27,055 nt of DNA, from positions 1 to 27,055 of the forward strand of contig JAIXRT010000074.1 of the NCBI GenBank assembly GCA_027485075.1, read 5' to 3'. The DNA is from Cytophagaceae bacterium (GTDB lineage: Bacteria > Bacteroidota > Bacteroidia > Cytophagales > Spirosomataceae). The position numbers and the translations under genes are program-made. The notes under the pieces are model-generated. The model searched no databases, was not told the DNA's origin, and saw nothing but the letters and a program-made list of their open reading frames with translations. This document shows, in pieces, positions 2,083 through 24,365 of this stretch; position 1 is the first letter of the stretch, and each line of letters starts with the position of its first letter.

Positions 2083-2115
2083 AAAAAACAGACTTCTTTT
2101 AGATTGCTGTAGGTA

Positions 2116-3804: not shown

Positions 3805-3805
3805 A

Positions 3806-4246: not shown

Positions 4247-4247
4247 C

Positions 4248-5719: not shown

Positions 5720-5764
5720 ATGAAATAATTACTTAATAAAGTAAATTTAAAATTGGTATTCATT

Positions 5765-6910
5765 TTGAATTCGATTGTAAAAATTGCTATCATTGGAATA
5801 GGTAACTGTTCTAGTTCTTTAATTCAGGGTATAGAACATTACCGCAATTCCCCCGCAGCCACTTATGGGCATATTTTTAAGCTGATCGGTGGATATCGAA
5901 TTGAAGACATCGAGGTGGTGCTGGCTTATGATGTTGATGAACGGAAAGTTGCGCGCGATTTAAGCGAAGCCATTTTTGTTGCGCCCAATAATGCACTTGT
6001 TTTTCACGCCGATGTTCCTCCTTCCGGAGTTGCCGTAAAAATGGGGCGAGTATTGGATGGTGTAGCGCCCCACATGGAGGCTGCGGGTGGTCGTGGTTTT
6101 CAGATATCGGGCTCGCCAGAGCCCTCAATGAGCGACGTCGTGCTCGCGCTAAAACAATCAGGCGCCGACGTGATGGTCAATTTTTTGCCTGTCGGTTCTC
6201 AGGAGGCCACGGAATTTTATATGGAGTGCGCCCTCGAGGCCGGGGTGGCTGTCGTAAACTGCATTCCAGTTTTTATAGCTAGCGATCTTGCTTGGTCCGA
6301 GCGTTTTCGTGCACGCAGCCTGCCGGTGGTGGGGGACGACATCAAGGCTCAAATTGGCGCAACAATTGTTCACCGCGTCCTCGCTGATTTGTGTTCGTCC
6401 CGCGGCATTAATTTAAAGCGGACTTACCAACTGAATACAGGCGGTAATACTGACTTCATGAACATGCTTGATGGTTCGAGATTGAGCCAGAAAAAATTGT
6501 CTAAAACTGAAGCCGTTCAGACTGCTTTAGCTAGCCGCCTAGCTGACGAGAATATTGTGATAGGCCCTGCAGAGTATGTTCCTTGGCAAAGGGACAACAA
6601 AGTCTGTTTTCTCCGAATTGAGGGGGAGCATTGGGGAGGGGTGCCCGTGAACATGGAAATCCGACTTTCTGTCGAGGACAGTCCGAATTCAGCGGCGTGC
6701 GTCGTCGACGCAATTCGCTTTGCCAAGTCAGCGCTAGATAGGGGGGAGGGTGGCCCCCTTCTTTTGCCTTCTGCTTATTATTGCAAGCACCCTCCCCAGC
6801 AAATGGAAGAGAAATTGGTGCGTGAAGTGCTGAACGACTTGGCCTCTCAGCCAAGAGGGCTCAAAGTTTCGGACGCTAATTCCGGCAACTTGACTGAAGC
6901 GACGACATGA
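5765..6910 (+). CDS. ino1: Inositol-3-phosphate synthase (actinobacterial/archaeal-type Ino1)
   Basis: The enzyme converts glucose-6-phosphate to myo-inositol phosphate using NAD in the cytosol. It has the Rossmann signature VKIAIIGIGNCSSSLIQG at the N-terminus, DVMVNFLPVGSQEATEFY, VGDDIKAQIGATIVHR and the active-site block NTGGNTDFMNMLDGSRLSQKK. The length (381 residues from TTG 5765) fits the shorter prokaryotic form. Both possible starts are TTG (5753 or 5765) and neither has a good ribosome-binding site. I chose 5765 because it places the protein start directly before the first strand, as in relatives. It is the first gene of the capsule run, followed 13 bp later by the cytidylyltransferase that would use its product. 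Confidence 0.93.
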   Translation: MNSIVKIAIIGIGNCSSSLIQGIEHYRNSPAATYGHIFKLIGGYRIEDIEVVLAYDVDERKVARDLSEAIFVAPNNALVFHADVPPSGVAVKMGRVLDGVAPHMEAAGGRGFQISGSPEPSMSDVVLALKQSGADVMVNFLPVGSQEATEFYMECALEAGVAVVNCIPVFIASDLAWSERFRARSLPVVGDDIKAQIGATIVHRVLADLCSSRGINLKRTYQLNTGGNTDFMNMLDGSRLSQKKLSKTEAVQTALASRLADENIVIGPAEYVPWQRDNKVCFLRIEGEHWGGVPVNMEIRLSVEDSPNSAACVVDAIRFAKSALDRGEGGPLLLPSAYYCKHPPQQMEEKLVREVLNDLASQPRGLKVSDANSGNLTEATT

Positions 6911-6923
6911 TGTGGGGTTTATC

Positions 6924-7664
6924 ATGGATGGCGTGATTATAGCGGCTGGCATCGGCAGTAGAATTAAGACCGTCTCGCCGTCAAAGCCATTAACCTCAGT
7001 TCGGGGTCGTACTTTGCTTGAGATTGCGGCGCGCCAGCTGTCTAGGGCAGGTGTCGATCGAATAATTGTAGTAACCGGATACCGCACCGAACTCGTCGAG
7101 GCTGCCCTTCCGCAGATTTCGTCAGCAGTGGGACTGCCGGTTGTTGCAACGCGTGTCCAAGATTATACATTAAACAACGGATACTCCGTGCTGGCTGGCG
7201 CCGCGCTTACCACTGGCGATTATTTGCTAGTGATGGCTGATCATATATTGGATGCAGAAATTCTGTCCTCGCTGGCAGAAGCCGGATCCGTTGACAGGGG
7301 CGTTACGCTGGCTGTCGACAGGCGGTTGGATAACCCTCTGGTTGACGATCTCGATGCAACCTATGTCCGCACCAACGACTTAGGTCGAATACTCAATATC
7401 AGTAAGCGGTTGGATCAACCTGATGCAGTGGACTGTGGCGCGTTTCTCGCCAGTTGGGAGTTGGCTGAGGGAATTGCAGCGGCAATAGCTGCCGGAGGCA
7501 TCGGCAGCTTATCGGAGGGCGTTCAATGGCTGGCTGACCAAGGGCGTGCTGCAACGATTGATATCGGGCAGGCTTTTTGGATTGACGTGGATGATCCCTC
7601 TGCGCTTGCGATAGCAGAAAGCAGTATTCCTGACCATTTAGCGTCTGCGTGTGTGTTGACATGA
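6924..7664 (+). CDS. CTP:inositol-1-phosphate cytidylyltransferase-like nucleotidyltransferase
   Basis: This 246-residue protein is a sugar-phosphate nucleotidyltransferase fold. The pattern IIAAGIGSRI...SKPL at residues 4-26 is the nucleotide loop and KPL lysine. Later blocks are NNGYSVLAG, VMADHIL, VDRRLDNPLVDDLDATYV, LGRILNISKRLDQPDAVDCGAFL and FWIDVDDPSAL. These follow the order seen in archaeal inositol-1-phosphate cytidylyltransferase (NGYSLLV, MGDH, IGKxL...DCVDTGF, WxDVDT). It would make CDP-inositol from the Ino1 product. ATG 6924 is preceded by GGGG; a GTG at 6912 is also in frame. A LicC-like choline-phosphate enzyme is the main alternative, but the neighbouring ino1 favours inositol. 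Confidence 0.8.
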   Translation: MDGVIIAAGIGSRIKTVSPSKPLTSVRGRTLLEIAARQLSRAGVDRIIVVTGYRTELVEAALPQISSAVGLPVVATRVQDYTLNNGYSVLAGAALTTGDYLLVMADHILDAEILSSLAEAGSVDRGVTLAVDRRLDNPLVDDLDATYVRTNDLGRILNISKRLDQPDAVDCGAFLASWELAEGIAAAIAAGGIGSLSEGVQWLADQGRAATIDIGQAFWIDVDDPSALAIAESSIPDHLASACVLT

Positions 7665-8923
7665 TCCGCAACCGCCCAATCTTGTTGGACGTCACCCGGC
7701 TAATTGCTTGCGGATGGAGTGGCCGGCAACCAACGGGTATAGATCGCGTGTGCGACGCCTATCTTAACCATTATCGACATCGGGCCCATGCCGCGTTCCA
7801 GCACCGCGGTGTCGTCAGAGTGCTGAACGAAACGCATTCAAATGAAATGTTTTCACTAATGGCAGAGCGAGATCGGAGTTTTAAATCTAGATTATTCCGC
7901 TTGGCGCCCTCGATGCTTAAAAACAGTGTCTCAACAGTTTATGGACCCGAGCACCTTTATCTTAATTTAAGCCAAACGGACGCAGATCTCGCAAGTCATT
8001 GGGATTGGATCAGGCGCTGTAAGTTGACGTCCGTTCAAATGGTTCATGATTTGATACCCATTTTGAACCCAAATTATTGTACTCCGGAAGCAACGCGCAG
8101 GCACACAGGCCGAGTGACTAACGCTCTTCGTTACGCCGGCGGTGTCATCACAAATTCACATGCGACAAATGATGATCTTGTTAGCTTCGCAAGTGACAAA
8201 GGCATCCCGCTGCCGCCCATTCTAACCGCGCATCTCGGCGTGAGCGACGTTATTGGACAGGCCGCGGGGCAGCAGGATCAATCTGAACATTTCGTCTTCG
8301 TGGGTACATTTGAAGCCCGCAAAAATCATCAGATGCTATTTCGAATTTGGCGGCGTTTCATCGCCAGCGGTCGCCCCGATGTGCCGCTTCTCGTGCTCAT
8401 CGGTCAACGTTCTTCACTTTTTCGAAGCATCGAATTGGAATTGAAAAGCGATAGGATTTTAGCAGCCAAGGTGAAAATTCTAACCGACTGCGGTGATGAA
8501 GAAATGAGCCGCTGGGTTAGAACCGCTCGTGCAGCCTTGATCCCGTCGTTGGACGAAGGATTTGGTTTACCATTAGTTGAAGCAATGACGCTCGGCGTGC
8601 CTTCAATCGTCAGTGATCTCCCTTCGTTCCGGGAGATCGGCGACAGCATTCCTGAATTTATTCCCGCCGATGATGAATGTTTGTGGGAGGCTGCGATAAT
8701 AAAATTTTTTGAATCCGAAACGCAAGGCAATCGTCAGCGCCTTAGGTTGGCTGCCTATAAACCATCTCCATGGCGGCAGCATTTCGGGTTGGTGGATGAG
8801 TGGCTTTCACGCCTGCCGCGCCAACATACTGCGAGCGCATCGGGCAATTTAGGCGCGGTGTTGGAGGACGGTGGAACCACTCCTTCTGCGTCGACAGAAT
8901 TTGCTCACAGAAAAGTTGCGTAG
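7661..8923 (+). CDS. Glycosyltransferase, GT4-type (GT-B fold)
   Basis: The protein (420 residues) is a cytoplasmic retaining glycosyltransferase. Near the N-terminus it has the block QPTGIDRV, shared with the TPR-glycosyltransferase further downstream. The C-terminal domain has FVFVGTFEARKNH (donor-domain start, residues 211-223) and the E-x7-E pair in EGFGLPLVE (E299, E307), followed by VPSIVSDLPSFREIGD. The ATG overlaps the cytidylyltransferase stop (ATGA), a sign of coupling. A long GTG extension at 7649 is not needed. Donor and acceptor sugars cannot be read from sequence. Confidence 0.92.
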   Translation: MIRNRPILLDVTRLIACGWSGRQPTGIDRVCDAYLNHYRHRAHAAFQHRGVVRVLNETHSNEMFSLMAERDRSFKSRLFRLAPSMLKNSVSTVYGPEHLYLNLSQTDADLASHWDWIRRCKLTSVQMVHDLIPILNPNYCTPEATRRHTGRVTNALRYAGGVITNSHATNDDLVSFASDKGIPLPPILTAHLGVSDVIGQAAGQQDQSEHFVFVGTFEARKNHQMLFRIWRRFIASGRPDVPLLVLIGQRSSLFRSIELELKSDRILAAKVKILTDCGDEEMSRWVRTARAALIPSLDEGFGLPLVEAMTLGVPSIVSDLPSFREIGDSIPEFIPADDECLWEAAIIKFFESETQGNRQRLRLAAYKPSPWRQHFGLVDEWLSRLPRQHTASASGNLGAVLEDGGTTPSASTEFAHRKVA

Positions 8924-8925
8924 CT

Positions 8926-10098
8926 ATGAAAGACACAACCAACATAGCCGAGGGCACTGGAAGTTCGGCCGACTTGAGTGCCGCGTCCGGTCTAACAACG
9001 CGTCGCAGCAAGCGGTTTTATAGAGGCCCGCTTTTCCTGTTGACGGTTCTACTGCCCACCTGCCTTTCGGTCATTTACTTTGGTATCTTGGCCAGCGACG
9101 TATACATATCAGACGCTCGCTTCGTTGTGCGAAGTCCGGCGCGTCAAGCGAGCTCTCCCCTCGGAACTATTCTAAATGCAGGCGGCTTTTCAGGCAGCAG
9201 CGAAGAATCCAATGCCGTGATGGAGTACGTCCGTTCGCGTGACGCTCTGAAAGAGATTAATTCAAATGGCTTGATAAGGACCTCCTTTTCTAACCCAGAG
9301 GTCTCATGGTTTGACCGTTTCGGGACATTGTTGCGCGGCAACACTGGCGAGCACTTGTACGTATATTATCTCGGTAAAGTTAGTATCGAGAATGACGCCG
9401 CTCTCCAAGTCACGCGACTTACGGTTCGCGCGTTTACGCCCAAGGATGCGCAGATCATAAACCAGCGATTGTTGCGCCAGTCAGAAGCCCTGGTAAATCG
9501 GTTGGCAGAGCGCGCCCGTGGTGACGCTATAACGATTGCGCGCGGTGAATTAGATACAGCGCGGGAACGGGCGCGCTCTGCCGCGGTCGCGCTATCTCGC
9601 TTTCAAGGTCAGCAAGGAATTCTAGACCCCCAGCGGGAGGGTGACGTTCGCATGCAAATGATCGCCAAATTGCAAGACGAACTTATCTCAACGAAGACGC
9701 AGCTGCAGCAGTTGAGGGCATTCACCCCACAGGCGTCTCAAATCCCCTTTGTCAGGTCGCGTATCCAATCTTTAGAAAAGGAAATTGCCGACCAAACCTC
9801 AAGCGTGGCTGGCGGCGAAGCTTCGCTTTCAAAGGTCGCAGTGCGCTTCCAGGAACTCAGGCTAGACAACCAACTCGCTGAGAAGCAATTTGCGGCGGCA
9901 CTGACCGCGTTAGAGGAAGCCCAAGCCGAAGCTCGCCGCAAAAGAGCATATGTCGAGAGAATATCGGAACCCAGTTTACCAGATTATGCTGCGGAACCCC
10001 GCCGCCTTAGGGGTATATTTGCAACTCTGGTCCTGAGTTTATTGTTTTGGGGTGTGCTTTCGATGCTTCTCGCAGGTGTCCGGGAGCACCAGGACTGA
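8926..10098 (+). CDS. kpsE: Capsule export inner-membrane protein, KpsE/BexC/CtrB family
   Basis: KpsE-type proteins (PCP-3 family) link the ABC exporter to the outer-membrane channel. The 390-residue product has an N-terminal cytosolic tail, a membrane segment at about 34-56, SDARFVVRSP right after it, a long coiled-coil region (about 190-320, rich in QLQQLRAF and EKEIADQ patterns), the family motif EPSLPDYAAEPRR, and a second membrane helix at the C-terminus. I chose ATG 8926, two bases after the previous stop; an upstream in-frame ATG at 8800 lies inside the preceding gene. The stop overlaps the KpsM start. Confidence 0.93.
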   Translation: MKDTTNIAEGTGSSADLSAASGLTTRRSKRFYRGPLFLLTVLLPTCLSVIYFGILASDVYISDARFVVRSPARQASSPLGTILNAGGFSGSSEESNAVMEYVRSRDALKEINSNGLIRTSFSNPEVSWFDRFGTLLRGNTGEHLYVYYLGKVSIENDAALQVTRLTVRAFTPKDAQIINQRLLRQSEALVNRLAERARGDAITIARGELDTARERARSAAVALSRFQGQQGILDPQREGDVRMQMIAKLQDELISTKTQLQQLRAFTPQASQIPFVRSRIQSLEKEIADQTSSVAGGEASLSKVAVRFQELRLDNQLAEKQFAAALTALEEAQAEARRKRAYVERISEPSLPDYAAEPRRLRGIFATLVLSLLFWGVLSMLLAGVREHQD

Positions 10099-10901
10099 TG
10101 AACGCTCGCGTGTCCCCTGAACACAACCTACGTCGGAGCTTGGAGATTCAGGTCCGGGTGTTGGGCGCTCTATTGATGCGCGAAACGCTAACACGTTACG
10201 GTCGCCATAATATTGGATTTCTTTGGCTCTTTGTCGAGCCAATGATATTCACTTTAGGGGTTACAGCGCTTTGGATAGCTACAAAATCGGTCCACGGTAG
10301 CGACCTTCCAATCGTTGCGTTCGCGCTTACTGGATATTCAAGCGTCCTTCTGTGGCGAAATATGCCCGGGCGATGCACCGGCGCTTTAATGGGCAATTTG
10401 GCCCTAATGTATCACCGTAACATTAAGGTGCTCGATATCTATCTTGCGCGTGTAATTCTAGAATTTGCGGGCGCAACGATGTCATTTGCTACGCTTGGCC
10501 TGACATTCATTTCGTTTGGCATATTGGCCCCGCCGCAAGACATTATTCAAGTCGCGACAGGATGGCTTTTGCTGGCTTGGTTTGGCGGCGCGCTGGCAAT
10601 TCTTTTGGGTGCGTTGTCGCATCGCAGTGAATTGGTTGAAAAGCTATGGCACCCTGCGTCTTATCTATTGTTTCCGCTGTCAGGCGCCGCCTTCCTGGTG
10701 GCCGCCCTTCCACCTGCTGCGCAGCAGATTGTGCTCTACATCCCAACCGTCCATGCGATTGAACTTTTGCGTGAAGGGTGGTTCGGGGACCGCGCAAGAG
10801 CGATTTATGATCTGAGTTACATTATACCATTCAACCTCATATTGACTTTGTCGGCGCTGTTACAGGTCCGTATCACCGGCAGAGACGTGGTCCCCGAATG
10901 A
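10098..10901 (+). CDS. kpsM: Capsule ABC exporter permease, KpsM family
   Basis: This 267-residue integral membrane protein matches ABC-2 type polysaccharide exporters. The N-terminal cytosolic portion has LGALLMRETLTRYGRHNIGFLW, the typical amphipathic entry helix motif, then about six transmembrane helices, with LPLSG-like and IPTVHAIELLREGWFG near the end (compare NPxVHxxEllR in KpsM). The ATG shares one base with the kpsE stop (TGATG). The ORF could be extended upstream to 10047 but that would lie wholly in kpsE. It works with KpsT to move the glycan across the inner membrane. Confidence 0.93.
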   Translation: MNARVSPEHNLRRSLEIQVRVLGALLMRETLTRYGRHNIGFLWLFVEPMIFTLGVTALWIATKSVHGSDLPIVAFALTGYSSVLLWRNMPGRCTGALMGNLALMYHRNIKVLDIYLARVILEFAGATMSFATLGLTFISFGILAPPQDIIQVATGWLLLAWFGGALAILLGALSHRSELVEKLWHPASYLLFPLSGAAFLVAALPPAAQQIVLYIPTVHAIELLREGWFGDRARAIYDLSYIIPFNLILTLSALLQVRITGRDVVPE

Positions 10902-12376
10902 TACACGTTCAAAACGTCCACAAAACTTACCAAACGAGGCATGGCAAAAGCCACGTGCTGAATGATGTGTCCTTTGACCTGCGCAAGGGCGAAAAGCTTG
11001 GAATTCTAGGTCGTAACGGCGCAGGAAAGTCTACCCTTGTTCGCCTAGTCAGTGGCGCAGAGCAGCCCACCTCAGGATTAGTAGAACGCTCTATGTCTGT
11101 GTCCTGGCCACTTGCTTTCGGAGGCGCGTTTCAAGCTGACCTTACTGGTAAGGATAATGTGCGGTTCATCAGCCGTATTTATAGGCAGGATTTTGAGCAA
11201 AATCTCGCATTTGTAGAAGATTTTGCCGAGTTGGGGCCTTATTTGCTTGAGCCTGTCCGAAGCTATTCATCAGGTATGCGCGCAAGGTTGGCGTTCGCGA
11301 TATCGATGATAATTGAGTTCGATTGTTTTCTGATTGACGAAGTTAGTGCGGTGGGTGACGCGAGGTTCCACGAAAAGTGCAATTATGAATTGTTTACCAA
11401 GCGCGCTGACCGCGCGATGGTCATGATTTCGCATGATGCGACTTATGTGAGGGATCATTGTAACCGCTTCGGAATCCTTCACGATGGAAAACTGGGGTTA
11501 TATGATGATTTTGACGTCGCCTATAGTGAGTATGCGAAGTTAATTTCCGTATCCACAACGGCATACGCAACATCCAAATTTGTAGCCAACCGCTCGTCAC
11601 CTATGGAGGTACAGTATCAAGCTGCGCTAGCTGATGAGCAGTTTATGTTTCATGTCCGCCGAGGTGACTGGGCCATGGAGAAGTCTGCATGGTCGGAGGC
11701 AGAGGATGAGTATAGCGCGGCACTGAAGCTGCATCCATATGAGCGGACCTATTGGTCTCAACATGGCCATGCAGCTAGGGCGCAGGGTAAATACACCCTT
11801 GCAGAAATTTCATACCGTAACTCCTGCGCTCTGGGATACCCTCTTCCGGAAATCAGTCCGTTCATCAAAGACGCAATGGCGCACCAGTCAGTAACTGAAC
11901 TGGAATACCCCATCATGTCATATAATAAGGGGGTTTTGAGCACCCAACCTCCAGTGTCGAACGACGTTTTGATATTTGCCAAGGCATTTTGGGGTCAGCT
12001 TGATGTTACCGATTTAGAATTGCTTGATTTGATCCGGAATTCTCCGACACTAGATAGCTTGGCGGAACGGATGCTCGTGGACGAGAAGTGTATTTGGCGG
12101 CCCGGTGGAGCGCCGTCTGCATTAGAACAAATGTCACGGGCCATAACGGGCGACGATCTGAGTTGGATACGAACGTTTTGCCAACTTGGTGGAGCGGGTT
12201 TGAAATTTGCGAACACAGCCGACCTCATTGAACGATTTCAAAGCCAGCAGGATTTATTTGCCGTCACTATTAAAGAAAACTGGTTTTCTGAATGGAGCAA
12301 TACTTCGTCAACCCTTAGCGAATTCACCGCAGCGTATAGTGACCTCAAACATGAGCTATCAAATGTCTACCCTTAA
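10898..12376 (+). CDS. kpsT: Capsule ABC exporter ATPase KpsT with a long TPR-containing C-terminal extension
   Basis: Residues 1-220 form a complete KpsT-type ATPase: Walker A GRNGAGKS (38-45), signature SSGMRAR (124-130), Walker B CFLIDE (143-148) and switch histidine MISHD (179). Ordinary KpsT ends near residue 220, but this protein runs to 492. Residues about 250-314 contain two TPR-like helix pairs (WSEAEDEYSAALKLHP, then YTLAEISYRNSCALGYP). The remaining 175 residues are a soluble region I do not recognise. The start overlaps kpsM (ATGA). The tail does not look like a carbohydrate-binding beta domain as in Wzt. It may dock the TPR-glycosyltransferase or another assembly protein at the exporter, by inference. 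Confidence 0.9.
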   Translation: MIHVQNVHKTYQTRHGKSHVLNDVSFDLRKGEKLGILGRNGAGKSTLVRLVSGAEQPTSGLVERSMSVSWPLAFGGAFQADLTGKDNVRFISRIYRQDFEQNLAFVEDFAELGPYLLEPVRSYSSGMRARLAFAISMIIEFDCFLIDEVSAVGDARFHEKCNYELFTKRADRAMVMISHDATYVRDHCNRFGILHDGKLGLYDDFDVAYSEYAKLISVSTTAYATSKFVANRSSPMEVQYQAALADEQFMFHVRRGDWAMEKSAWSEAEDEYSAALKLHPYERTYWSQHGHAARAQGKYTLAEISYRNSCALGYPLPEISPFIKDAMAHQSVTELEYPIMSYNKGVLSTQPPVSNDVLIFAKAFWGQLDVTDLELLDLIRNSPTLDSLAERMLVDEKCIWRPGGAPSALEQMSRAITGDDLSWIRTFCQLGGAGLKFANTADLIERFQSQQDLFAVTIKENWFSEWSNTSSTLSEFTAAYSDLKHELSNVYP

Positions 12377-13199
12377 AGAAATACTTGTTAACTCTCGACG
12401 TGACGAGGCGGAAACTCACTTTGGCACTCGCGCACGCAGCCAATATTTGGGAGACGACACACTGTTGTGTCGTATCCTCGGAGAAAAGAAATTTTTCGCC
12501 ATCGCAAGCGATATTGGACTGTCACCTCACCTGGCCTTTGATGGTTACTGGGAGTTCTGGCTTACGCTGCATTTCGCAAGAAAGATCAATCATGGCGATA
12601 CAGTAATCGATATTGGAGCAAATCTCGGTTATTACAGCGTTCTTGCAGCAGACCTTGTTGGCACGGCTGGTAAGGTTGTGGCCATTGAACCTAATCCAAC
12701 TGTATATTCCTATCTGAAAAAAACGATCCAACTGAATGGCTATGGTGATCGGGTCGATGCCAAAAATTATGCCATTTCATCTCAAGATGACGACGTTTCT
12801 GTCCCATTTTTTGTTCCCACGGGTGAACCAAAAAATGGACGGTTCATTCTAGATGACGAAAGTTCCGAATATCTCGCTAATTTTGGAAACGTCTTTGACG
12901 TGACAGCTGGATCCTTGGTCGAATGCCAGTTTGACCGCATAGATCTTATAAAGATCGACGTAGAGGGTGCCGAACTGCAAGTTCTAAAGCGATTACAGCC
13001 CCTAATTCAGAAGTTTTTGCCTCAGGTCGTGTGCGAAGTTAATTTTGCCAGAGGGTATTGCTACGAGGACGTGCAGGAAGCCCTAGGTGTAGAAACTGAA
13101 CTCTTATTTCTGGATTATGACGGGGCAGTAAAGCCTCTGTCAAAGATTATGGCAGCCGGAGAGCGGTGCGGCGACGATTGGCTGATTTGCCATGGATAA
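12351..13199 (+). CDS. FkbM-family SAM-dependent methyltransferase
   Basis: The 282-residue protein has a class I methyltransferase core: motif I VIDIGANLGYYS (86-96), acidic AIEPNP (111-116), the FkbM-type block FDRIDLIKIDVEGAELQVL and a terminal PQVVCEVNF strand. FkbM proteins in glycan loci usually O-methylate sugars. ATG 12351 overlaps the kpsT end by 26 bp; ATG 12363 is a second possibility. An open frame reaches back to 12207, but that would overlap kpsT by 170 bp. It is the last gene before the only sizeable gap in the operon (13200-13375). Confidence 0.88.
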   Translation: MSYQMSTLKEILVNSRRDEAETHFGTRARSQYLGDDTLLCRILGEKKFFAIASDIGLSPHLAFDGYWEFWLTLHFARKINHGDTVIDIGANLGYYSVLAADLVGTAGKVVAIEPNPTVYSYLKKTIQLNGYGDRVDAKNYAISSQDDDVSVPFFVPTGEPKNGRFILDDESSEYLANFGNVFDVTAGSLVECQFDRIDLIKIDVEGAELQVLKRLQPLIQKFLPQVVCEVNFARGYCYEDVQEALGVETELLFLDYDGAVKPLSKIMAAGERCGDDWLICHG

Positions 13200-13241
13200 T
13201 CAAACATATTTTCGCGCGCACTCGAGCGCCATTGTCACCGA

Positions 13242-13268: not shown

Positions 13269-13375
13269 GGCCACAAAAGCTTGCTCCAGAGGTGCGCAGG
13301 TTAGACATCTAAGCTGTGTTGTCGCGGCTTTTGGCAACGTCATTTGCATTTACAGTTTGTAAGAGGGAAGATTCA

Positions 13376-15652: not shown

Positions 15653-15677
15653 GGGGCCTTTGAAATCGGAGAATAGC

Positions 15678-16736: not shown

Positions 16737-17592
16737 TATCCTCGGAAATTGCCATGTAAGAAGCCTTGCAGCGTGCATCTCAGTCTTGGTGCCAAAATCG
16801 GCTGTCGATTTCCGAACTCTGGGAGAGTTCGAAAAATCAACACAAGAAGAGAATAAATACTATTTTGATAATTTGGCTAATGCCGATGTCATTTTCATTC
16901 AGCATCCGTTTCCGTTAAACGTTTTAAAACAAGAATTTGACGTCTTTGATCATCGTGTACATCGATTTCCAATGGTAACTTACACGGCATTTCATCCGGA
17001 CTCAACTTACTTGATCAGGAGAGGGAAGTTTATTCAGGGTGCCACTGGTCCTTATCACTCTGCACTTGTATTGGCCGGCTTTCTTGAAGGCGTTCAATCG
17101 GATCGCCTAATAAAATTGTTTAATCGCTTCACATTTTCATCGCTCGGTTACGTTGATCAGCACCAAGTTGCGACTGACATTTTGCGCCGTGATTTCCATG
17201 AGATAGGCTACGATTATGAGCCTGTGAGCTCCTCCGGTATTTTTATGCATACAATGGACCATCCAAAGATTGTCGCAATGAATGAAGTTGCGAAACAGGC
17301 GCTCACGAAATCGGGAATAGTCGCGCAGAAGAACGCTAAAATTCCAGTCGATCCGTTAGATAGGGACTGGAAATGGCCAGTATATGCTGACCTACCTTTC
17401 GGTCAAAACTATATTTTTCATGTAGGAATAGGGATGAACTCGTCCCATCAAGTTCCCATCGAAAGGCGGGAGCTATTGCTCAGTGAATTCATCAGAATAA
17501 GTTACGATATTTATAAAGATGTGAATTTTGAAAATGAATTTCCAGGAATAGTAATGAGAGAAATGAATTTCATGAGAAATAATTTAAAATAA
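16723..17592 (+). CDS. WcbI-type polysaccharide biosynthesis protein (putative acetyltransferase)
   Basis: The N-terminus ISILGNCHVRSLAACI matches WcbI, a CoA-binding protein of capsule loci thought to acetylate sugars. IQHPFPLN and TYTAFHPDS are further family-like blocks. The product has 289 residues. ATG 16723 is preceded by GAGGA at good spacing; ATG 16708 is in frame but less well placed. It overlaps the GSCFA gene by 14 bp. Base composition begins to fall toward AT in the last 100 bp, where the AT-rich sulfotransferase segment starts. Confidence 0.82.
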   Translation: MPRISILGNCHVRSLAACISVLVPKSAVDFRTLGEFEKSTQEENKYYFDNLANADVIFIQHPFPLNVLKQEFDVFDHRVHRFPMVTYTAFHPDSTYLIRRGKFIQGATGPYHSALVLAGFLEGVQSDRLIKLFNRFTFSSLGYVDQHQVATDILRRDFHEIGYDYEPVSSSGIFMHTMDHPKIVAMNEVAKQALTKSGIVAQKNAKIPVDPLDRDWKWPVYADLPFGQNYIFHVGIGMNSSHQVPIERRELLLSEFIRISYDIYKDVNFENEFPGIVMREMNFMRNNLK

Positions 17593-17617
17593 TTTATATG
17601 TAAATGGGGATTGTATT

Positions 17618-18307
17618 TTGAATATAATATTCAGTTATGGAATGCCAAAATCTGGCAGTTCTTTTGCTTGGATGATAATAAATTATTTATGCGTATATGC
17701 AAAATTAGATGTTATAAATCTTTCTTCAGAAGCTAAAAATAACGAAAGTTATGAAAATTACATAGACGCTGATTTTTTCATAAATAATGAAAAAATAATA
17801 AATGAAATAAATAATGGGTGGTGCGTAATTAAAACCCATTCTGGACCATTTAAATTTGATAATTTACGCAATGAAAGTTCAAAACATTTTTCATTTGCGC
17901 AACACAGGGATCCTAGAGAAATATACTTATCACTTATGGATCACGCAAAAAGATCTCAAATAATGGGTATTAATGATTTTGTTGAATGTAGAGATTTGGA
18001 AAATTGCATTCCTGTTATTGATGATGCAATAAATAAATTATTCAAATGGGTAGATGAATATAAATCAGTAGCAATTTCTTACGAGTACTTATGCTTTGAC
18101 AGCAAAAATGCCATTATGGATATAGCAAGCAAAATTGGTTTAGATATAGAAATAGATAAAATCGTAAAAAAATTTGAAAATAAATCGGAAATTATACAAT
18201 TCAATAAAGGCAAAATTCGTCGCTGGGAGACAGAAATATCGTCAGATGAATCGGAATTTTTTATTAAAAGATATGAAGAGTATTATAAGCGATTCGGAAT
18301 TTCATGA
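17618..18307 (+). CDS. Sulfotransferase-like protein, AT-rich and probably acquired
   Basis: The 229-residue protein has the two PAPS-binding signatures of sulfotransferases: GMPKSGSSF (residues 8-16, 5'-phosphosulfate loop) and HRDPREIYLS (96-105, 3'-phosphate site). It would transfer sulfate from PAPS to the polysaccharide in the cytosol. The start is TTG with GGGGA 7 nt upstream. Two lines counted by hand give about 32% and 20% G+C, far below the neighbouring genes, and Lys/Asn/Ile codons dominate. This suggests recent transfer into the operon. No PAPS-producing genes are in the window. Confidence 0.8.
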   Translation: MNIIFSYGMPKSGSSFAWMIINYLCVYAKLDVINLSSEAKNNESYENYIDADFFINNEKIINEINNGWCVIKTHSGPFKFDNLRNESSKHFSFAQHRDPREIYLSLMDHAKRSQIMGINDFVECRDLENCIPVIDDAINKLFKWVDEYKSVAISYEYLCFDSKNAIMDIASKIGLDIEIDKIVKKFENKSEIIQFNKGKIRRWETEISSDESEFFIKRYEEYYKRFGIS

Positions 18308-18322
18308 AGGTTTTAGAATATA

Positions 18323-19636
18323 ATGCCTAACATACTCATTGATGGCTACAATCTTGGCCTAGAAAAAGGTACAGGTGTCGCAACCTATGCGCGCAATCTC
18401 AGTTATGAGTTAAAGGCGCTAGGGCATTCCGTTTCCGTCCTATACGGCAATCGAGCGGCGCCCTCCCGAGAGAGCCTAATGCGTGAAATTGCATTTTTCG
18501 ATAGCAATGTAGGTGACCGAAACCGGCTGCTTCAAATTCTAGATCAGGCGCACCGAGCGCTGTTGGGGCCATTGGGGCACTTTGCTGAAGATGTTCCAAT
18601 CACGGGGCAGGTTATCACGCGAACCTTTAGTGCACGGATGCCCGCATTTGATCATATTCTGAACGCGACGGACGTCTTCGTGCGTTCTCAAAGCGCGTTT
18701 AAGCTTTGGAAAACGCTTTCTCGCGTTAGCGTGCCGGAAACGCCGGACCTCGTCCACTGGACCTATCCGGTGCCGTTGCGCATAAAACGGGCGCCCAACA
18801 TCTACACCATGCATGATTTGGTGCCGCTGCGTTTGCCCTATACTACACTCGATAAAAAGCGGACTTACTATAAGCTAATGCAGAAATTGGCACGTACGGC
18901 TGACCACATTGTAACAGTTTCAGAATGTTCGCGCCGCGACATTATTGATCTGTTGGGCGTGTCACCTGACCGTGTTACAAACACCTACCAGTCAGTGTCG
19001 ATACCTGAAAAATATACTAACAAGTCAGAAGCTCAGGTCGCCCGCGAAGTCGAAGGCGCAACCGGAGTGGGGTATAAGGAATATTTCTTATTCTGGGGGT
19101 CGATAGAACCGAAAAAAAATATCGGTCGGATGATCGAAGCCTATCTCTCCAGTGGTGTTGATGCACCGCTGGTTATCGTCGGTGCCCAAGCCTGGAAGTC
19201 CGAGCAAGAATTAAGACTGCTGAACGACGAGGTCATTCGCTATCTCTCTATAGCGGACGGACAAGTTCGCACCAAGAAGCGTGTTATCCAGCTATCCTAC
19301 GCACCGTTTAGCTTACTCGTAAGTCTTATCCGTGGGGCGAAAGGCGCCTTGTTTCCTTCCCTCTATGAAGGGTTTGGACTTCCGGCGCTTGAGGCGATGT
19401 TGCTTGGCACGCCAGTCATTTGCGCCGACACCGCCTCACTCCCCGAGGTGGTGGGGGATGCGGCTGTGATGGTTGACCCATATGACGTTGCGGCGCTGTC
19501 CAACGCAATCCGTACAATTGATCACGACGCCGATTTGCGAACAGAATTGACCGCGCGTGGCATAAAAAGAGCAAGTAACTTTACTCCAGAAAAGTACCGT
19601 GAGAATTTGAAAGCGCTTTATTCGCGCTTCGTTTGA
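18323..19636 (+). CDS. Glycosyltransferase, GT4-type
   Basis: A 437-residue GT-B enzyme. The N-terminus ILIDGYNLGLEKGTGVATYARNL is a typical GT4 acceptor-domain start. HDLVPLRLPYTT and VTVSECSRRDI are middle blocks. FWGSIEPKKNIGRMIEA opens the donor domain, and EGFGLPALE carries the catalytic E-x7-E (E349, E357), followed by TPVICADTASLPEVVGDAA. Composition returns to that of the rest of the operon right after the AT-rich sulfotransferase gene. The sugar specificity is not evident; mannose is possible given manC nearby. Confidence 0.92.
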   Translation: MPNILIDGYNLGLEKGTGVATYARNLSYELKALGHSVSVLYGNRAAPSRESLMREIAFFDSNVGDRNRLLQILDQAHRALLGPLGHFAEDVPITGQVITRTFSARMPAFDHILNATDVFVRSQSAFKLWKTLSRVSVPETPDLVHWTYPVPLRIKRAPNIYTMHDLVPLRLPYTTLDKKRTYYKLMQKLARTADHIVTVSECSRRDIIDLLGVSPDRVTNTYQSVSIPEKYTNKSEAQVAREVEGATGVGYKEYFLFWGSIEPKKNIGRMIEAYLSSGVDAPLVIVGAQAWKSEQELRLLNDEVIRYLSIADGQVRTKKRVIQLSYAPFSLLVSLIRGAKGALFPSLYEGFGLPALEAMLLGTPVICADTASLPEVVGDAAVMVDPYDVAALSNAIRTIDHDADLRTELTARGIKRASNFTPEKYRENLKALYSRFV

Positions 19637-19658
19637 TTGCGATTTGAGGATAATATTT

Positions 19659-20933
19659 ATGCGACCCATTGATAGTTCACTCGCCAAGGGCAAGATTGTC
19701 GCAGCCAACAAAAAGGTTGCGCTTCGGGCACCCCAGAAACCGCGCTATATAAGTCAGTTAAGGGCAACTTTGGTTGCGATGTCTGGCGCGCTGACACTGG
19801 CTGCATGTTCGTCAATAGGAGGCAGTGGACCATCGTCGGCGCGTATCAACAGCTCGGCCAAGGAATCTTATGCCGGAAACGGTATCACTATCGTTGATCT
19901 CAACAAAAGCGCGTTATCGCGTATCAATTCTGTTCAGGAAGCTAAAAGCTTCGCCGCGCTCCTTGCAGAGACGCCAGCTTTGAACCCAGTAATAGGGGCG
20001 GGTGACGTTCTGGATGTTTCAGTCTGGGAAGCGCCACCCTCAATTCTTTTTGGGTCAATAGAAGGCGGATCATCGCAAAATCTAGGAGCTCAGAACCGAA
20101 CTGTCTTGCAGCAAGTTGTCAGCACAGATGGAACGATGGCTATACCGTTCGTCGGTCGTATTTCTGTTGATGGCATGGCTCCCGCAGCCTTGGAGCGTGA
20201 AATAGTTCGCCGCTTGGCAAAGCGGGCAAACGACCCGCAGGTTGTTGTCAAAATTGCGCAAAATGAAGCGCGGAACGTGACGATATTAGGAGAAGTTGCG
20301 AGCAGTCGGCGCGTTCCCATTGGCGCCCGCGGAGACCGCTTACTTGATATTCTGGCAACAGCGGGTGGTCCGCGCCAGCCAGTTGGCCAAACAACCGTGC
20401 AAATCACGCGCGGAGGAACAATCGCAGTCATGCCGCTCGAAAAAATTGTTGAGGATCCAAGACAGAATGTACGGATGGTAGCGGACGACATCGTAACGGT
20501 GCTGCACCAACCTTATAGTTTTATCGCCTTGGGAGCGGTTGCGCGAAATGCCGAAATTCCCTTCGAGGGGAAGGGGATATCGTTGGCGCAGGCTTTAGCC
20601 CGGACGGGAGGTTTGCGTGATGATCGCGCTAATATTCGCGGCATTTTCGTTTTCCGACTGGAATCGCCAGAAGCCCTTGACGCATCGCGCCTGACCGACG
20701 CACGCAGGACCGAGAAGGGTCTAGTGCCCGTAGTCTATCGCCTTGACCTAAGCGACGCGACAGGTTTCTTTGTAACGCAAGATTTTCTAATTCACGACAA
20801 AGACGTAATATACATATCGACAGCGCCAGGCGCTGACCTGATGCGTTTTGTTTCAACGGTCTCAAGTCTTGCCTTTTCAGCGCTATCGATCGGTAATGTT
20901 ATAAGCAGTGCATCGAACAATAATCCAAATTAA
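19659..20933 (+). CDS. Outer-membrane polysaccharide export lipoprotein, Wza/KpsD (OPX) family
   Basis: This is the outer-membrane channel component that completes the KpsMTE exporter. The N-terminus has a rather long basic n-region, then a hydrophobic stretch ending in a lipobox, GALTLAAC (Cys at residue 50). The polysaccharide export domain follows (GAGDVLDVSVWEAP...GTMAIPFVGRISVDG), then two SLBB-type repeats (VTILGEVASSRRVPIG and FIALGAVARNAEIPFEGKG). The C-terminus is hydrophobic. ATG 19659 is preceded by GAGGA 8 nt upstream; a TTG at 19644 is less likely. Length (424 residues) fits the Wza class better than the long KpsD form. Confidence 0.92.
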   Translation: MRPIDSSLAKGKIVAANKKVALRAPQKPRYISQLRATLVAMSGALTLAACSSIGGSGPSSARINSSAKESYAGNGITIVDLNKSALSRINSVQEAKSFAALLAETPALNPVIGAGDVLDVSVWEAPPSILFGSIEGGSSQNLGAQNRTVLQQVVSTDGTMAIPFVGRISVDGMAPAALEREIVRRLAKRANDPQVVVKIAQNEARNVTILGEVASSRRVPIGARGDRLLDILATAGGPRQPVGQTTVQITRGGTIAVMPLEKIVEDPRQNVRMVADDIVTVLHQPYSFIALGAVARNAEIPFEGKGISLAQALARTGGLRDDRANIRGIFVFRLESPEALDASRLTDARRTEKGLVPVVYRLDLSDATGFFVTQDFLIHDKDVIYISTAPGADLMRFVSTVSSLAFSALSIGNVISSASNNNPN

Positions 20934-20974
20934 TCTCAGATCACTTCCACGACTAATATTATCCGAGGTGAGTG

Positions 20975-21031
20975 ATGGAACATGACGTAGATCCATTTCC
21001 AATGGTTGGGCTGGCGGGCAAAGTGATTTGA
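20975..21031 (+). CDS. 18-codon upstream ORF coupled to the next glycosyltransferase gene
   Basis: ATG at 20975 opens an 18-residue peptide (MEHDVDPFPMVGLAGKVI). It is preceded by GAGGTG at 6-nt spacing, the best ribosome-binding site in this stretch. Its TGA (21029-21031) overlaps the TTG start of the glycosyltransferase (TTGA). The glycosyltransferase itself has a TTG start and no good site of its own. A translational coupling leader is the simplest reading; a remnant of a lost gene is possible. Confidence 0.45.
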   Translation: MEHDVDPFPMVGLAGKVI

Positions 21032-22254
21032 CGCGTTTGGTATGCATTGACTGTAGGTATGTGAATTCGAAGCCTAGCGGTATCGCCGAGACTGTTATGG
21101 CTCTGGTTGACTACATACCAACGATGGCTCCAGATCTGCGTTTTCGGCTATTAGTCAGTCCGAATGTATCGTTTCAACTCAGCCATCTCGAGAATGTTGA
21201 ACAGGTGGAGGTATCTGCAGCGGCTAACGGGCCAGCCACAATGTGGGGGCTCCCCATGATCGCGGACTTAAAGGGCGTCGACCTTTTTCACGCCACGTTT
21301 AATATCATGCCTGCTGGGTTAGGCATGCCATGCATCACGACAATTCATGATTTAATGTGGCTGGAGCAACCTGAGTGGTGCGCGACGGGCTGGCGCCGCT
21401 ACCTCCGGCAGCCGTTTTTTGCGCACGGGATAAAGCGCGCATTGAACCAATCGACCATTATTGCGACTGTCAGTGAGGCAACAAAAAATGCCGTGGTCTT
21501 AGGTAGGCCTGACGCTGCGCCGCGAACTTTTGTAACGCTTTCGGGCGTCAGCGACGAATTCAAGCGATCTGCGTGCGAGCGAGGTAAGTTGAGTGCCTTT
21601 GGTTTAAATCCTGAACGCCGTTTCGTTCTCACAGTGGGCCAGTTTGCGCCCTATAAAAATCATCTGCAGGTAATTCGGAGCTTCGCGCAGGTTTGCGCCA
21701 CTCGAAAGGACGTTGATCTGGTGCTTGTCCAGCGTCAAGGGAGTGAATCTGCGGCATTGCGCAGGTTTGCTGAACGGCTTGGTATCGGGGGCCGCATACT
21801 CATTTTGCCTGCGGTGTCGCGCGCGGACCTCATTACGCTCTATTCTTTGGCAGAATTGTTGCTTCATCCATCCTTGTGTGAGGGGTTCGGAAATCCCTTG
21901 GCCGAGGCCATGGCGTGCGGCTGTCCGGTGGTGACTAGTGACAGATCTGCAATGGTTGAAGTGACTGCAGGGGCCGCCATGTTGATCAATCCGAACGATG
22001 CTGAGGCAATTGCGCGGGCTGTGGGCGTAATAATCGACGACCAGGTTATTAGATCCACTATGCGTGAGAGTGGTCTGTTGCGGGCCAAGCAGCTAAAGTG
22101 GTCGGAGTTTGCTCGCGCAAACTTGGCACTTTACCGGCGGGCACTGCGTGGGGAGCCGTCAAGGGTTAACAACTCTGCCACCATTGCCCTATCGGCCCGT
22201 ATAAACAGGATTTTTAACCAAATCAGAGCTCCGTTTAGAAGAATGATTTCGTAA
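21028..22254 (+). CDS. Glycosyltransferase, GT4-type
   Basis: A 408-residue GT-B enzyme, last gene of the plus-strand run. Visible blocks are CIDCRYVNSKPSGIAETV at the N-terminus, ITTIHDLMWLEQPEW, TVSEATKNAVVLG, LTVGQFAPYKNH opening the donor domain, and EGFGNPLAE (E285, E293) as the E-x7-E pair followed by CPVVTSDRSAMVEV. The start is TTG at 21028, overlapping the stop of an 18-codon ORF with a strong ribosome-binding site. Its 3' end overlaps the convergent CDP-alcohol phosphotransferase gene by 124 bp. Substrates are unknown. Confidence 0.9.
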   Translation: MTRLVCIDCRYVNSKPSGIAETVMALVDYIPTMAPDLRFRLLVSPNVSFQLSHLENVEQVEVSAAANGPATMWGLPMIADLKGVDLFHATFNIMPAGLGMPCITTIHDLMWLEQPEWCATGWRRYLRQPFFAHGIKRALNQSTIIATVSEATKNAVVLGRPDAAPRTFVTLSGVSDEFKRSACERGKLSAFGLNPERRFVLTVGQFAPYKNHLQVIRSFAQVCATRKDVDLVLVQRQGSESAALRRFAERLGIGGRILILPAVSRADLITLYSLAELLLHPSLCEGFGNPLAEAMACGCPVVTSDRSAMVEVTAGAAMLINPNDAEAIARAVGVIIDDQVIRSTMRESGLLRAKQLKWSEFARANLALYRRALRGEPSRVNNSATIALSARINRIFNQIRAPFRRMIS

Positions 22255-23066
22255 AGGAAGTACCATAAGGGCATGCCTGCCAGCATTGCCAATCCAAGAA
22301 AAATGGTTCGGTGGTTTGCGCTTAGAAGACCAAGCGGACCAAGTAGCGGCCGATGGTGTCGGATGATGGTCTCTCGAACATTGCGTTGTACCTTTGGATT
22401 ACCTTGCGCGGCGCTTAGGGCGCTGTCTATCGAGCGATCTGCAGCGAGTGCATGTTGGGATAGTCGCAGGTACATTTGGGCTACTATGTTTAAACCAATG
22501 CCAGGCGAGATATCATGCCGGGAGAACTGTTTAAGCCATCCACGATTATACACCCACAATTGGTACTGACGGCGCCTAACCTCATAGAAATTCGCCTGCA
22601 CGATACGGCTCAGTCCAGCAGCAATGACTACAGCCCAGGCCACTTTAGAGCCGAGCCCAGCAGCTAGCAGGTGGGCCATCATACAATAGAGAATTATATG
22701 TGACAGATAGTCTGACAGGCCGTCGACAATTTCCCCGTGTGGACTGACTTTGCCATTTATGCGGGCAAGATCACCGTCGGCGCCGTCTAAAACATGCCAA
22801 AGCATGTGAGCCAAAAGACCTATGATGACTGCTTGAGGCCAAGAGGGGATTGTATAGAAATAGGCGCAAGTGACGACAGACAGTCCGCCCGCAAGTGAGA
22901 CCAAATTTGGCGTTATAGCCGTCCGAGATAGGCCGTTTGCAATTTTCCAGGACAGCGGATGATAGAGATAAAAATTCAGCCAATCTTCCAACTCGCGCGG
23001 CCGCTTAAGCGCGGCGTCGTCAAATGCCACCTGCTTGGCGTCACCGTTTTGAGAATTGTCATGCAT
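22131..23066 (-). CDS. CDP-alcohol phosphotransferase (integral membrane)
   Basis: The full CDP-alcohol phosphotransferase signature is intact: D94-x2-D97-G-x2-A-R102-x8-G111-x3-D115-x3-D119. The 311-residue protein starts with RPRELEDWLNFYLYHPL, a juxtamembrane helix, then ITPNLVSLAG leading into several membrane segments; the last helices lie near residues 258-290. Such enzymes move a phospho-alcohol from a CDP-alcohol to another alcohol or lipid at the membrane. Given the upstream CDP-inositol-forming gene, phosphoinositol transfer is plausible but inferred. AGAGG precedes ATG 23066. Its end overlaps the convergent glycosyltransferase by 124 bp. Confidence 0.88.
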   Translation of the reverse strand: MHDNSQNGDAKQVAFDDAALKRPRELEDWLNFYLYHPLSWKIANGLSRTAITPNLVSLAGGLSVVTCAYFYTIPSWPQAVIIGLLAHMLWHVLDGADGDLARINGKVSPHGEIVDGLSDYLSHIILYCMMAHLLAAGLGSKVAWAVVIAAGLSRIVQANFYEVRRRQYQLWVYNRGWLKQFSRHDISPGIGLNIVAQMYLRLSQHALAADRSIDSALSAAQGNPKVQRNVRETIIRHHRPLLGPLGLLSANHRTIFLGLAMLAGMPLWYFLYEIILLNGALIWLKILFIRADRAMVAELLTLDGSPRSARR

Positions 23067-23261
23067 GTAGCCTCTTAAGCCTATCTGTCATCGTGAGACG
23101 GTAGTCGGGAGCTTAGATGTTTTAATGATGCCGTGCTGAATGCCATCAATAGGGGCGAAAATTGTCCAAATTTGAATTGGTTAAAATGCTACTTGGTAGC
23201 TAGGGCAGTTTCAAGTCTTATGGCTCTAATGAGTTGATCTAACTCGCGTAATGGAGGCCCG

Positions 23262-24365
23262 ATGCCTAGAATTTTCCTAGTTTTCTCTTCCGCCGAAACG
23301 GCGAATGCTAATGTTTCCGGAGTACCTGCAGTCGCTCGGGTCGCACGCAATGCCAACATTGTTAACGAGAGCCTTAAGGAGCAAAACGAAATATTTATAG
23401 TGATGCCCGAAGGCCATTTGATTGGTGAGTGGAGTTCTAGTGAAATCTGCCGCCTCGCCCCGCACGTAAAACAAACGGCGGCAGATGTTTCTAAACTGAC
23501 GGCCCGAGAGGATGACATTTACCTCGCTGGCGAATGGATGCTAACAGGCGACATGCTGACCGTAATTTCAAAGGCGCGATCTGACGGCTTGCCTCCGGTC
23601 GGGGGGAGTAAAAAACTTGAGACAATTCTCGATTTTTATATTTCTGAAGGGCGGGAGCGCATCCTTCAACAGATACATCGCGCGAGCCGCCTCGTAATGA
23701 AAAATACCGTGAAGCCTACCGATGGTGTAGTTTCAAAATATATTAATCGTCCGATTTCCATTCGAATTAGTCATCTACTACTTCGGTATCGGTCTATACG
23801 CCCCATCCACGCAACCGCAGCTACGGGCTTGGTTGCGATGTTCATGCTTGCCTGCCTTCTGTCGGGTAATCAGCTTGGCCTCATAGGTGGGGCACTTTTG
23901 TTTCAGGCGGCTTCTCTATTGGATGGTGTTGATGGCGAGATTGCCCGGGCCACTTTTCGCAGCAGCACGCTCGGCGCGAGCCTAGATTCACTAACTGACG
24001 CGATTACAAACCTGGGTTTTATAAGTGGCCTCAGCGTCAGTCTTTGGCTTTTAGGTGAAGATAACGCTCTGATGCTTGGTTTATTGGGCTTCATTTGCCT
24101 CGGTCTCGGTCTCCTAATGCTTGGAAGGCATGCCGCGGCAACGGGCGCGCCATTACACTTTGATGGAATAAAACATTTTTTAAGACGTTCTCCGACCCGG
24201 ATATCCGACTGGTTGATCTGGCTGACTATGAGAGACTTTCTGGCCCTTTTAGGCGCGTTGATGGTTCTATTTGGTCTTGGATACTATTTTCTGCTGCTGT
24301 TTGTACTCGGCACTTGTGTCTGGGTCATATTTGCAGGGCTTGTTGTCTTGCGGTCGCGTTCGTGA
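23262..24365 (+). CDS. CDP-alcohol phosphotransferase with degenerate nucleotidyltransferase-like N-terminus (DIPPS-like layout)
   Basis: Residues about 150-367 are a membrane CDP-alcohol phosphotransferase with an intact motif: D221-x2-D224-G-x2-A-R229-x8-G238-x3-D242-x3-D246. The linker KPTDGVVSKYINRPISIRIS resembles that joining the two domains of archaeal IPCT/DIPPS. Residues 1-145 align in layout with a nucleotidyltransferase domain, but the AAGxGxR loop and KPL lysine are missing, so it is probably inactive. The active cytidylyltransferase may instead be the separate gene at 6924-7664. GGAGG precedes ATG 23262. It is divergent from the other phosphotransferase across a 195-bp promoter region. 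Confidence 0.85.
   Translation: MPRIFLVFSSAETANANVSGVPAVARVARNANIVNESLKEQNEIFIVMPEGHLIGEWSSSEICRLAPHVKQTAADVSKLTAREDDIYLAGEWMLTGDMLTVISKARSDGLPPVGGSKKLETILDFYISEGRERILQQIHRASRLVMKNTVKPTDGVVSKYINRPISIRISHLLLRYRSIRPIHATAATGLVAMFMLACLLSGNQLGLIGGALLFQAASLLDGVDGEIARATFRSSTLGASLDSLTDAITNLGFISGLSVSLWLLGEDNALMLGLLGFICLGLGLLMLGRHAAATGAPLHFDGIKHFLRRSPTRISDWLIWLTMRDFLALLGALMVLFGLGYYFLLLFVLGTCVWVIFAGLVVLRSRS

Follow-up and report, generated by a model that had tools for sequence, protein, structure and literature searches.

A sphingomonad capsule locus with a candidate CDP-inositol route to its lipid anchor

Genes of the inositol module and of the exporter

The window analysed here, a stretch of 27,055 nucleotides (contig JAIXRT010000074.1), contains a locus which combines the genes of an ATP-binding cassette (ABC) exported capsule with those of a predicted CDP-inositol pathway. 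As delimited by the open reading frames (ORFs) of the window and by domain searches, the locus extends from the start of the inositol-3-phosphate synthase gene Ino1 at 5753 to the end of a gene resembling di-myo-inositol phosphate phosphate synthase (DIPPS) at 24365. On balance we lean slightly towards viewing it as a sphingomonad capsule locus in which the lipid anchor is made through CDP-inositol in place of 3-deoxy-D-manno-octulosonic acid (Kdo). Since several matches fell below the curated NCBIfam cut-offs, family-resemblance names are used throughout and no equivalog names; genes lie on the + strand unless stated otherwise, and papers given by PMC number are cited from excerpts of their text.

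Ino1 (5753..6910; its TTG start is uncertain), which makes 1L-myo-inositol 1-phosphate, matched Pfam PF01658 with 115 bits and NCBIfam TIGR03450 with 380.5 bits, below the cut-off of 638. Its best solved relative was Mycobacterium tuberculosis Ino1 (1gr0, E 1.1e-105). The next gene (6924..7664) encodes a protein resembling inositol-1-phosphate cytidylyltransferase (IPCT), predicted to form CDP-inositol from CTP and inositol 1-phosphate. Its ORF opens with a GTG at 6912 and the ATG at 6924 is the start in 18 of 19 aligned homologues, so that a gap of 13 bp follows the Ino1 stop, as an earlier note on this DNA had stated. The nucleotidyltransferase fold (GxGxR...K and a catalytic Asp) was recognised from GIGSRIKTVSPSKP at residue 13 and MADH at 108-111; R16, K26 and D112 are named as residues common with IPCT in the study of the Caulobacter enzyme CpgD (PMC12275187). 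In searches of the PDB, the IPCTs of T. maritima (4jd0, E 1.7e-11) and A. fulgidus (2xme and 4mnd) were the top three in both searches, and the phosphocholine enzyme LicC (1jyk) was a far weaker match (E 8.9e-4). By sequence the protein is thus closest to characterised IPCTs, which is consistent with the family assigned to it in the earlier note, and its family and linkage suggest that it yields CDP-inositol.

Two CDP-alcohol phosphotransferases are encoded at the far end of the locus, CDPAP2 on the - strand (22131..23066) and the DIPPS-like enzyme (23262..24365). Both scored above the PF01066 cut-off and both carry the motif D..DG..AR.{8}G...D...D intact, confirming what had been claimed for them. 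The closest NCBIfam model of CDPAP2, which has a long polar stretch between its hydrophobic parts, was the archaetidylinositol phosphate synthase NF040950 (40.5 bits, cut-off 180). The DIPPS-like protein matched the C-terminal half of NF041135 (86.9 bits, cut-off 580) and 4mnd (E 4.3e-12), and its N-terminal region is without known fold; the idea that this part is a decayed nucleotidyltransferase was set aside after a profile comparison gave it 2.4% probability. The fused bifunctional IPCT-DIPPS described by NF041135 is represented here by two genes, scoring 77.5 and 86.9 bits against that cut-off.

The exporter consists of a KpsE-type polysaccharide co-polymerase (PCP-3; 8926..10098, start placed by eye, with a longer ORF from 8800), a KpsM-type permease (10098..10901, start placed by eye, the ORF opening at 10047), a KpsT-type ATPase (10898..12376; PF00005, ABC_tran) and an outer-membrane polysaccharide export (OPX) lipoprotein (19644..20933; PF02563, Poly_export, and PF22461, SLBB), whose ORF contains LAAC, a lipobox by eye. 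KpsE scored 339.5 bits with TIGR01010 (cut-off 437.5) and KpsM 87 bits with NF050053 (cut-off 300). All four components that define an ABC transporter-dependent capsule are therefore present, KpsE and KpsM with scores under the NCBIfam cut-offs, and the domain searches agree with the earlier placing of these four in one locus with the inositol genes. KpsT has 492 aa, about 270 of which form a long C-terminal extension; its aligned length in linked relatives is either 216-217 or 436-506 residues. Among the 20 window proteins scanned, the extent of this search, there was no match to PF05159 (KpsC/KpsS) and none to the KpsF or KpsU families, so the locus lacks the KpsC and KpsS pair that marks a Kdo-anchored group 2 capsule.

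Three family 4 glycosyltransferases (PF00534) accompany the exporter: GT4a (7649..8923), GT4b (18323..19636) and GT4c (21028..22254, 105 bits). The best named models of GT4c include MshA, an inositol-phosphate glycosyltransferase (77 bits, cut-off 462.5), a likeness of family resemblance only. The 3' ends of GT4c and CDPAP2 share 124 bp (22131-22254).

Conservation of the neighbourhood and absence of KpsC/KpsS

In order to compare loci, the best 80 of 361 candidates from a scan of genome contigs were used, and partner genes were called by tblastn with the window proteins (85 bits for CDPAP2, 70 bits for the DIPPS-like gene). Counts based on ORF-community grouping were set aside, as antisense ORFs won in GC-rich loci and split Ino1. 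Among L005-L076, 69 of the 70 loci that could be tested have Ino1 immediately upstream of the IPCT-like gene. Of eight more distant loci, three also have the two genes side by side (two of Marinimicrobia and one of Arenicellaceae). In a fourth distant locus, L077 of Gracilimonas (7024-9978), the IPCT gene has a eukaryote-type Ino1 and a Polysacc_synt flippase as its neighbours; L081 (6907-8355) has nearby a protein with a weak likeness to CDP-glycerol glycerophosphotransferases (PF04464, 24 bits). The CDP-alcohol phosphotransferase motif was not found in locus L077 or L081.

The constant company of Ino1 bears on the substrate of the cytidylyltransferase. CpgD is an alphaproteobacterial enzyme of the IPCT fold that is 24% identical to T. 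maritima IPCT (PMC12275187), and the window enzyme might likewise make another CDP-alcohol such as CDP-glycerate. The adjoining Ino1 in 69 of 70 loci argues against this, as do the alignments to two IPCTs, which span the region D..(A/S)(T/S)..V....I..I.K in a comparison made without CpgD, and we hold it to be quite improbable. The list of structural matches likewise holds no CpgD entry, which is not evidence of a difference.

A capsule-linked layout was observed in 14 of the best 80 loci, in Novosphingobium, Croceibacterium, Altererythrobacter, Aurantiacibacter, Erythrobacter, Porphyrobacter and one Sphingomonadaceae metagenome-assembled genome (MAG). GT4a, KpsE, KpsM and KpsT were present in all 14, and CDPAP2, the DIPPS-like gene and GT4c in all 11 that have at least 6 kb upstream; of the 14, 11 have GT4b and 10 have OPX, with several loci ending early. 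Loci L189 and L192 share the layout, and L190, ended by contig limits, agrees over what remains. Culturable environmental strains with the linkage include N. guangzhouense (L022), C. xixiisoli and E. longus DSM 6997. In a fifteenth locus, L030 of Erythrobacter oryzae, the inositol module and GT4c stand beside a diverged exporter of another lineage. The layout thus recurs in relatives and is not due to chance, and the neighbourhood on which the earlier note depended is conserved across genera; a one-off of a mosaic island was ruled out by the same recurrence, in the 14 loci and in L030.

The inositol module is constant while the cargo genes differ among linked loci. In the window the cargo comprises an FkbM-type methyltransferase (12207..13199; PF05050), found in three of 14 linked loci within a flank of up to 10 kb, a glycosyltransferase with tetratricopeptide (TPR) and GT4 (PF00534) parts (13316..15652), found in two, and a GSCFA-family protein (15660..16736; PF08885, 172 bits) and a WcbI-like polysaccharide enzyme (16708..17592; PF18588, 65.5 bits), each found in none of the 14. 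A further protein, by eye a possible sulfotransferase (17618..18307), matched no Pfam or NCBIfam family.

To place these loci among whole genomes, a fixed set of 297 Sphingomonadales genomes was searched, scoring at most nine IPCT-like and six KpsE candidates per genome. An IPCT-like match (E 1e-25) was present in 80 genomes, PF05159 (1e-3) in 94 and KpsE (1e-25) in 105, none of the 105 KpsE matches being above the curated TIGR01010 cut-off; weaker IPCT-like matches of 113-241 bits occurred in 49 genomes. Genomes were called linked when the IPCT-like and KpsE genes lay within 15 kb, which applied to 16 of the 297. The MAG that holds the contig (G000) was left out of the linked counts, being uninformative about the host.

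None of the 15 genomes in which the named linked loci lie has PF05159 (L030 included, G000 not counted). In the linked KpsE genomes it occurred in none of 16 at E 1e-30, a threshold picked after the list was seen, and in one of 16 at 1e-3 (G426, E 4.6e-11), against 79 of 89 other KpsE genomes at either threshold; the Fisher p is 1.7e-12 at 1e-30 and 8e-11 at 1e-3, for genomes that are not independent. An internal control is provided by the genomes with unlinked IPCT-like and KpsE genes, 21 of 22 of which have PF05159, so that possession of IPCT alone is not enough. It is this lack of KpsC/KpsS where the inositol module is capsule-linked that appears to be the new point.

GT4c behaved similarly, with at most six candidates scored per genome: it was detected at E 1e-50 in 15 of the 297 genomes, all of them among the 16 linked ones, and in the sixteenth (G009) the contig ends just upstream of Ino1. 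It may therefore serve as a marker of an inositol-linked capsule. GT4b was present in 16 of 16 linked genomes, with an identity of only about 48% in three of them, but five unlinked genomes (G413, G408, G479, G571 and G409) have it as well, which ruled it out as anchor-specific.

Where an unlinked locus has at least 9 kb upstream, CDPAP2 is present in 41 of 42 cases and the DIPPS-like gene in 16 of 42, with no KpsE or KpsM; distant DIPPS-like genes may escape this tblastn count. In L019, the single unlinked locus scanned for it, a Polysacc_synt-family (flippase-like) protein was seen. Such loci would be expected if the module makes an ordinary membrane inositol phospholipid and stands near kps genes out of chromosomal habit, with no coupling of function, and for Pseudoblastomonas, a genus of Erythrobacteraceae, the major lipids listed include phosphatidylinositol (PMC12210278). 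We consider this rather unlikely, given that GT4c is confined to linked genomes, that PF05159 is absent when the module is linked and that two exporter lineages are linked. The DIPPS-like gene could also point to soluble di-inositol phosphate, a compatible solute in the manner of hyperthermophiles. Here the constant partner of Ino1 and IPCT is CDPAP2 and not the DIPPS-like enzyme, and the coupling to capsule export would have no role, which leaves this explanation very improbable.

Exporter phylogeny, the G413 exchange and the host of the contig

A KpsE tree was built by a quick method from 72 rows, namely 60 of the 105 KpsE genomes, 11 named loci and the window. Of these rows 28 are linked, 39 have PF05159 and five have neither; G439 and G419 are very long. 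One clade, with a support of 100 in the Shimodaira-Hasegawa-like approximate likelihood ratio test (SH-aLRT), unites 27 of the 28 linked rows with one PF05159 row, G413, and L030 falls elsewhere. The tree requires three changes of linkage and offers three independent pairs, in which absence of PF05159 accompanies linkage in 1.9 of three on average and never runs against it.

The capsule locus of G413 (L187) keeps KpsE, KpsM, KpsT, FkbM and a GT4a homologue, the last beside KpsS. It carries a five-gene Kdo cassette of KpsF/KdsD, KdsB, KdsA, a KpsC-like PF05159 protein and a KpsS-like protein (NF050054, 238.5 bits, cut-off 600). The Ino1-IPCT-CDPAP2-DIPPS genes of the same genome (L188) share the contig of the capsule locus, about 590 kb from it; at E 1e-50 GT4c had no match in G413, and GT4b is present in its genome. 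From this one case, the set swapped with the anchor would be Ino1, IPCT, the phosphotransferases and GT4c for KpsF, KdsB, KdsA, KpsC and KpsS, with the exporter, GT4a and GT4b retained.

The exchange also bears on where the phosphoinositol goes. It might be a component or decoration of the capsule repeat with another lipid as the anchor: the genes sit within the capsule locus, and inositol in Bacteroides capsule, at up to 0.2 mol%, is described as not solely lipid-linked (PMC9246714). We take this to be unlikely. The phosphotransferases of the locus are integral enzymes of the CDP-alcohol family, and the scan of 20 window proteins gave no match to PF04464 (TagF-type); the linked module tracks the absence of PF05159, its counterpart in G413 is a Kdo cassette, and it is kept while cargo genes vary. 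The earlier note had left a lipid-linked unit and one within the glycan side by side. A lipid anchor would now be favoured, because KpsC/KpsS are absent, G413 has the Kdo cassette and GT4c is confined to linked genomes; the module is not exclusive to capsules, as most loci are unlinked.

The MAG that includes the window, as contig C13, spans 2.3 Mb and is 87% complete. Upstream of the locus the window holds PurQ, a YhhQ-type transporter, tRNA-Arg (1846-1922) and a serine recombinase with its neighbour. All 10 Sphingomonadales genomes searched have a PurQ with 70-80% identity to this one, as against 44-45% for four of four genomes of the MAG genus, and a second PurQ of the MAG is present in two pieces on contigs C50 and C268. 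YhhQ has matches in 26 of 30 other genomes of the MAG genus, at a mere 27-32% identity. The contig is therefore a binning contaminant and its true host is a sphingomonad by these sequence comparisons, in keeping with the alphaproteobacterium of the earlier note, and the MAG was ruled out as the host genome. The host is presumably mesophilic.

Downstream of the locus lie a ManC-type mannose-1-phosphate guanylyltransferase/isomerase (24750..26186; PF01050, PF00483), which by its family is likely to supply GDP-mannose, and a partial tyrosine integrase (26223-26888). Together with the tRNA-Arg and the serine recombinase and its neighbour (1846-4291), and with two AT-rich parts (5-6 kb and 17-18 kb), this makes it likely that the locus is a mosaic island. 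When 5753-10000 was searched against plasmids, 16 records matched, in each case inside the Ino1 part, at 65-71% DNA identity.

The proposed inositol-lipid anchor

We suggest that a phosphoinositol lipid, made via CDP-inositol, substitutes for the phosphatidylglycerol-poly-Kdo anchor. Given the computed gene families, conserved linkage and absence of KpsC/KpsS, the substrates of the enzymes, the acceptor lipid and the part played by GT4c may be as follows. Ino1 would convert glucose 6-phosphate to inositol 1-phosphate, which the IPCT-like enzyme would turn into CDP-inositol, and one or both CDP-alcohol phosphotransferases would move the phosphoinositol onto a membrane lipid (diacylglycerol, ceramide or other). 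GT4c would begin the glycan on the inositol, and GT4a, GT4b and the variable enzymes would lengthen it. KpsM would then take the phospho-lipid end, and KpsM, KpsT, KpsE and OPX would bring the glycan to the surface. KpsM is thought to recognise a conserved lipid end, as proposed for the Kdo lipid (PMC11041684).

Several observations weigh against this proposal. By fold, PntC tied with 4jd0 in the structure comparison of the IPCT-like enzyme, so that other substrates are possible, and the IPCT-like CpgD makes CDP-glycerate (PMC12275187). The AfDIPP synthase is reported as not processing lipids, and lipid-acceptor enzymes of its kind typically have extra helices (PMC4634129). Most of the best 80 loci, chiefly of Novosphingobium, hold the module without KpsE or KpsM in the stretch examined. 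With 27 of 28 linked exporters in one clade, the independent events are few and the genome counts are not independent, and with only three independent pairs significance is unreachable. The presence of a Kdo cassette in the exporter clade, in G413, implies that the exporter itself is not inositol-specific. Ten of the 105 KpsE genomes have neither PF05159 nor a linked IPCT, so the absence of KpsC/KpsS needs no inositol. Erythrobacter longus DSM 6997, a linked strain, has polar lipids listed without phosphatidylinositol and with some unidentified lipids (PMC9283347); a scarce anchor would fit this listing and that of Pseudoblastomonas, as would other readings.

One of the ten genomes with neither, G318 (L191, 5040-17127), has its KpsE exporter beside a PfkB-cytidylyltransferase fusion, a protein like N-acetylglucosamine (GlcNAc) 2-epimerase and a haloacid dehalogenase (HAD) phosphatase. 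By its gene content this is possibly another non-Kdo anchor.

According to a 2025 review, phosphatidylglycerol receives its Kdo from KpsC and KpsS, and systems of this type conserve the pair, apart from that of the Vi antigen, which is without it (PMC12220298). ABC-exported capsules are described on the conserved phosphatidylglycerol-poly-Kdo end, with Vi as the described exception (PMC12220298, PMC11041684). The Vi system of Salmonella (VexABCDE) resembles the present locus in exporting its capsule by an ABC transporter, in lacking KpsC/KpsS and in having a lipid anchor of its own; unlike the locus, it has a diacyl-N-acetylhexosamine (HexNAc) end and VexE, and the excerpt mentions no inositol (PMC12220298). 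The predicted Prevotella pathway to phosphatidylinositol-diacylglycerol (PI-DAG) likewise leads, in a mesophile, through myo-inositol phosphate synthase (MIPS), a nucleoside triphosphate (NTP) transferase and a CDP-alcohol phosphotransferase to CDP-inositol lipids; it differs in a HAD partner, and no kps exporter is mentioned in the excerpt (PMC9246714). With the group 2 capsule of E. coli (KpsMTED with KpsC and KpsS) the window locus shares KpsE, KpsM, KpsT and OPX and a glycan made inside the cell and exported by the ABC route, but in place of KpsC, KpsS, KpsF and KpsU it has Ino1, IPCT, two CDP-alcohol phosphotransferases and GT4c. The di-myo-inositol phosphate pathway of Archaeoglobus (IPCT-DIPPS) and Thermotoga (IPCT) uses the same enzyme families with CDP-inositol as the predicted intermediate, whereas here there are two separate genes, an extra CDP-alcohol phosphotransferase, a capsule context and a presumably mesophilic host. 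In Rhodothermus marinus, CDP-inositol is reportedly the donor of the lipid head group (work attributed to Jorge et al., 2015), whose abstract is said to mention homologues in Alphaproteobacteria; CDP-inositol lipids were thus already suspected there. We know of no link of that route to a capsule exporter. In mycobacteria, lipoarabinomannan and the phosphatidylinositol mannosides (PIMs) carry glycan on a phosphoinositol lipid, the phosphatidylinositol (PI) being made from CDP-diacylglycerol (CDP-DAG) and export not being by KpsMTE.

A literature search, covering titles and the openings of abstracts, with subscription papers mostly outside it, found no inositol-anchored Gram-negative ABC capsule described. 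We regard it as evenly balanced whether the loci of Erythrobacteraceae and Novosphingobium represent a class of Gram-negative ABC-exported capsules built on a CDP-inositol-derived phosphoinositol lipid, with GT4c as the first transferase and with inositol and poly-Kdo cassettes interchangeable for one exporter lineage. If true, this would add a second, inositol-based anchor and make the anchor a swappable module. The CDP-inositol pathway would gain a role in mesophiles, and there would be a Gram-negative parallel to the mycobacterial glycans on phosphatidylinositol.

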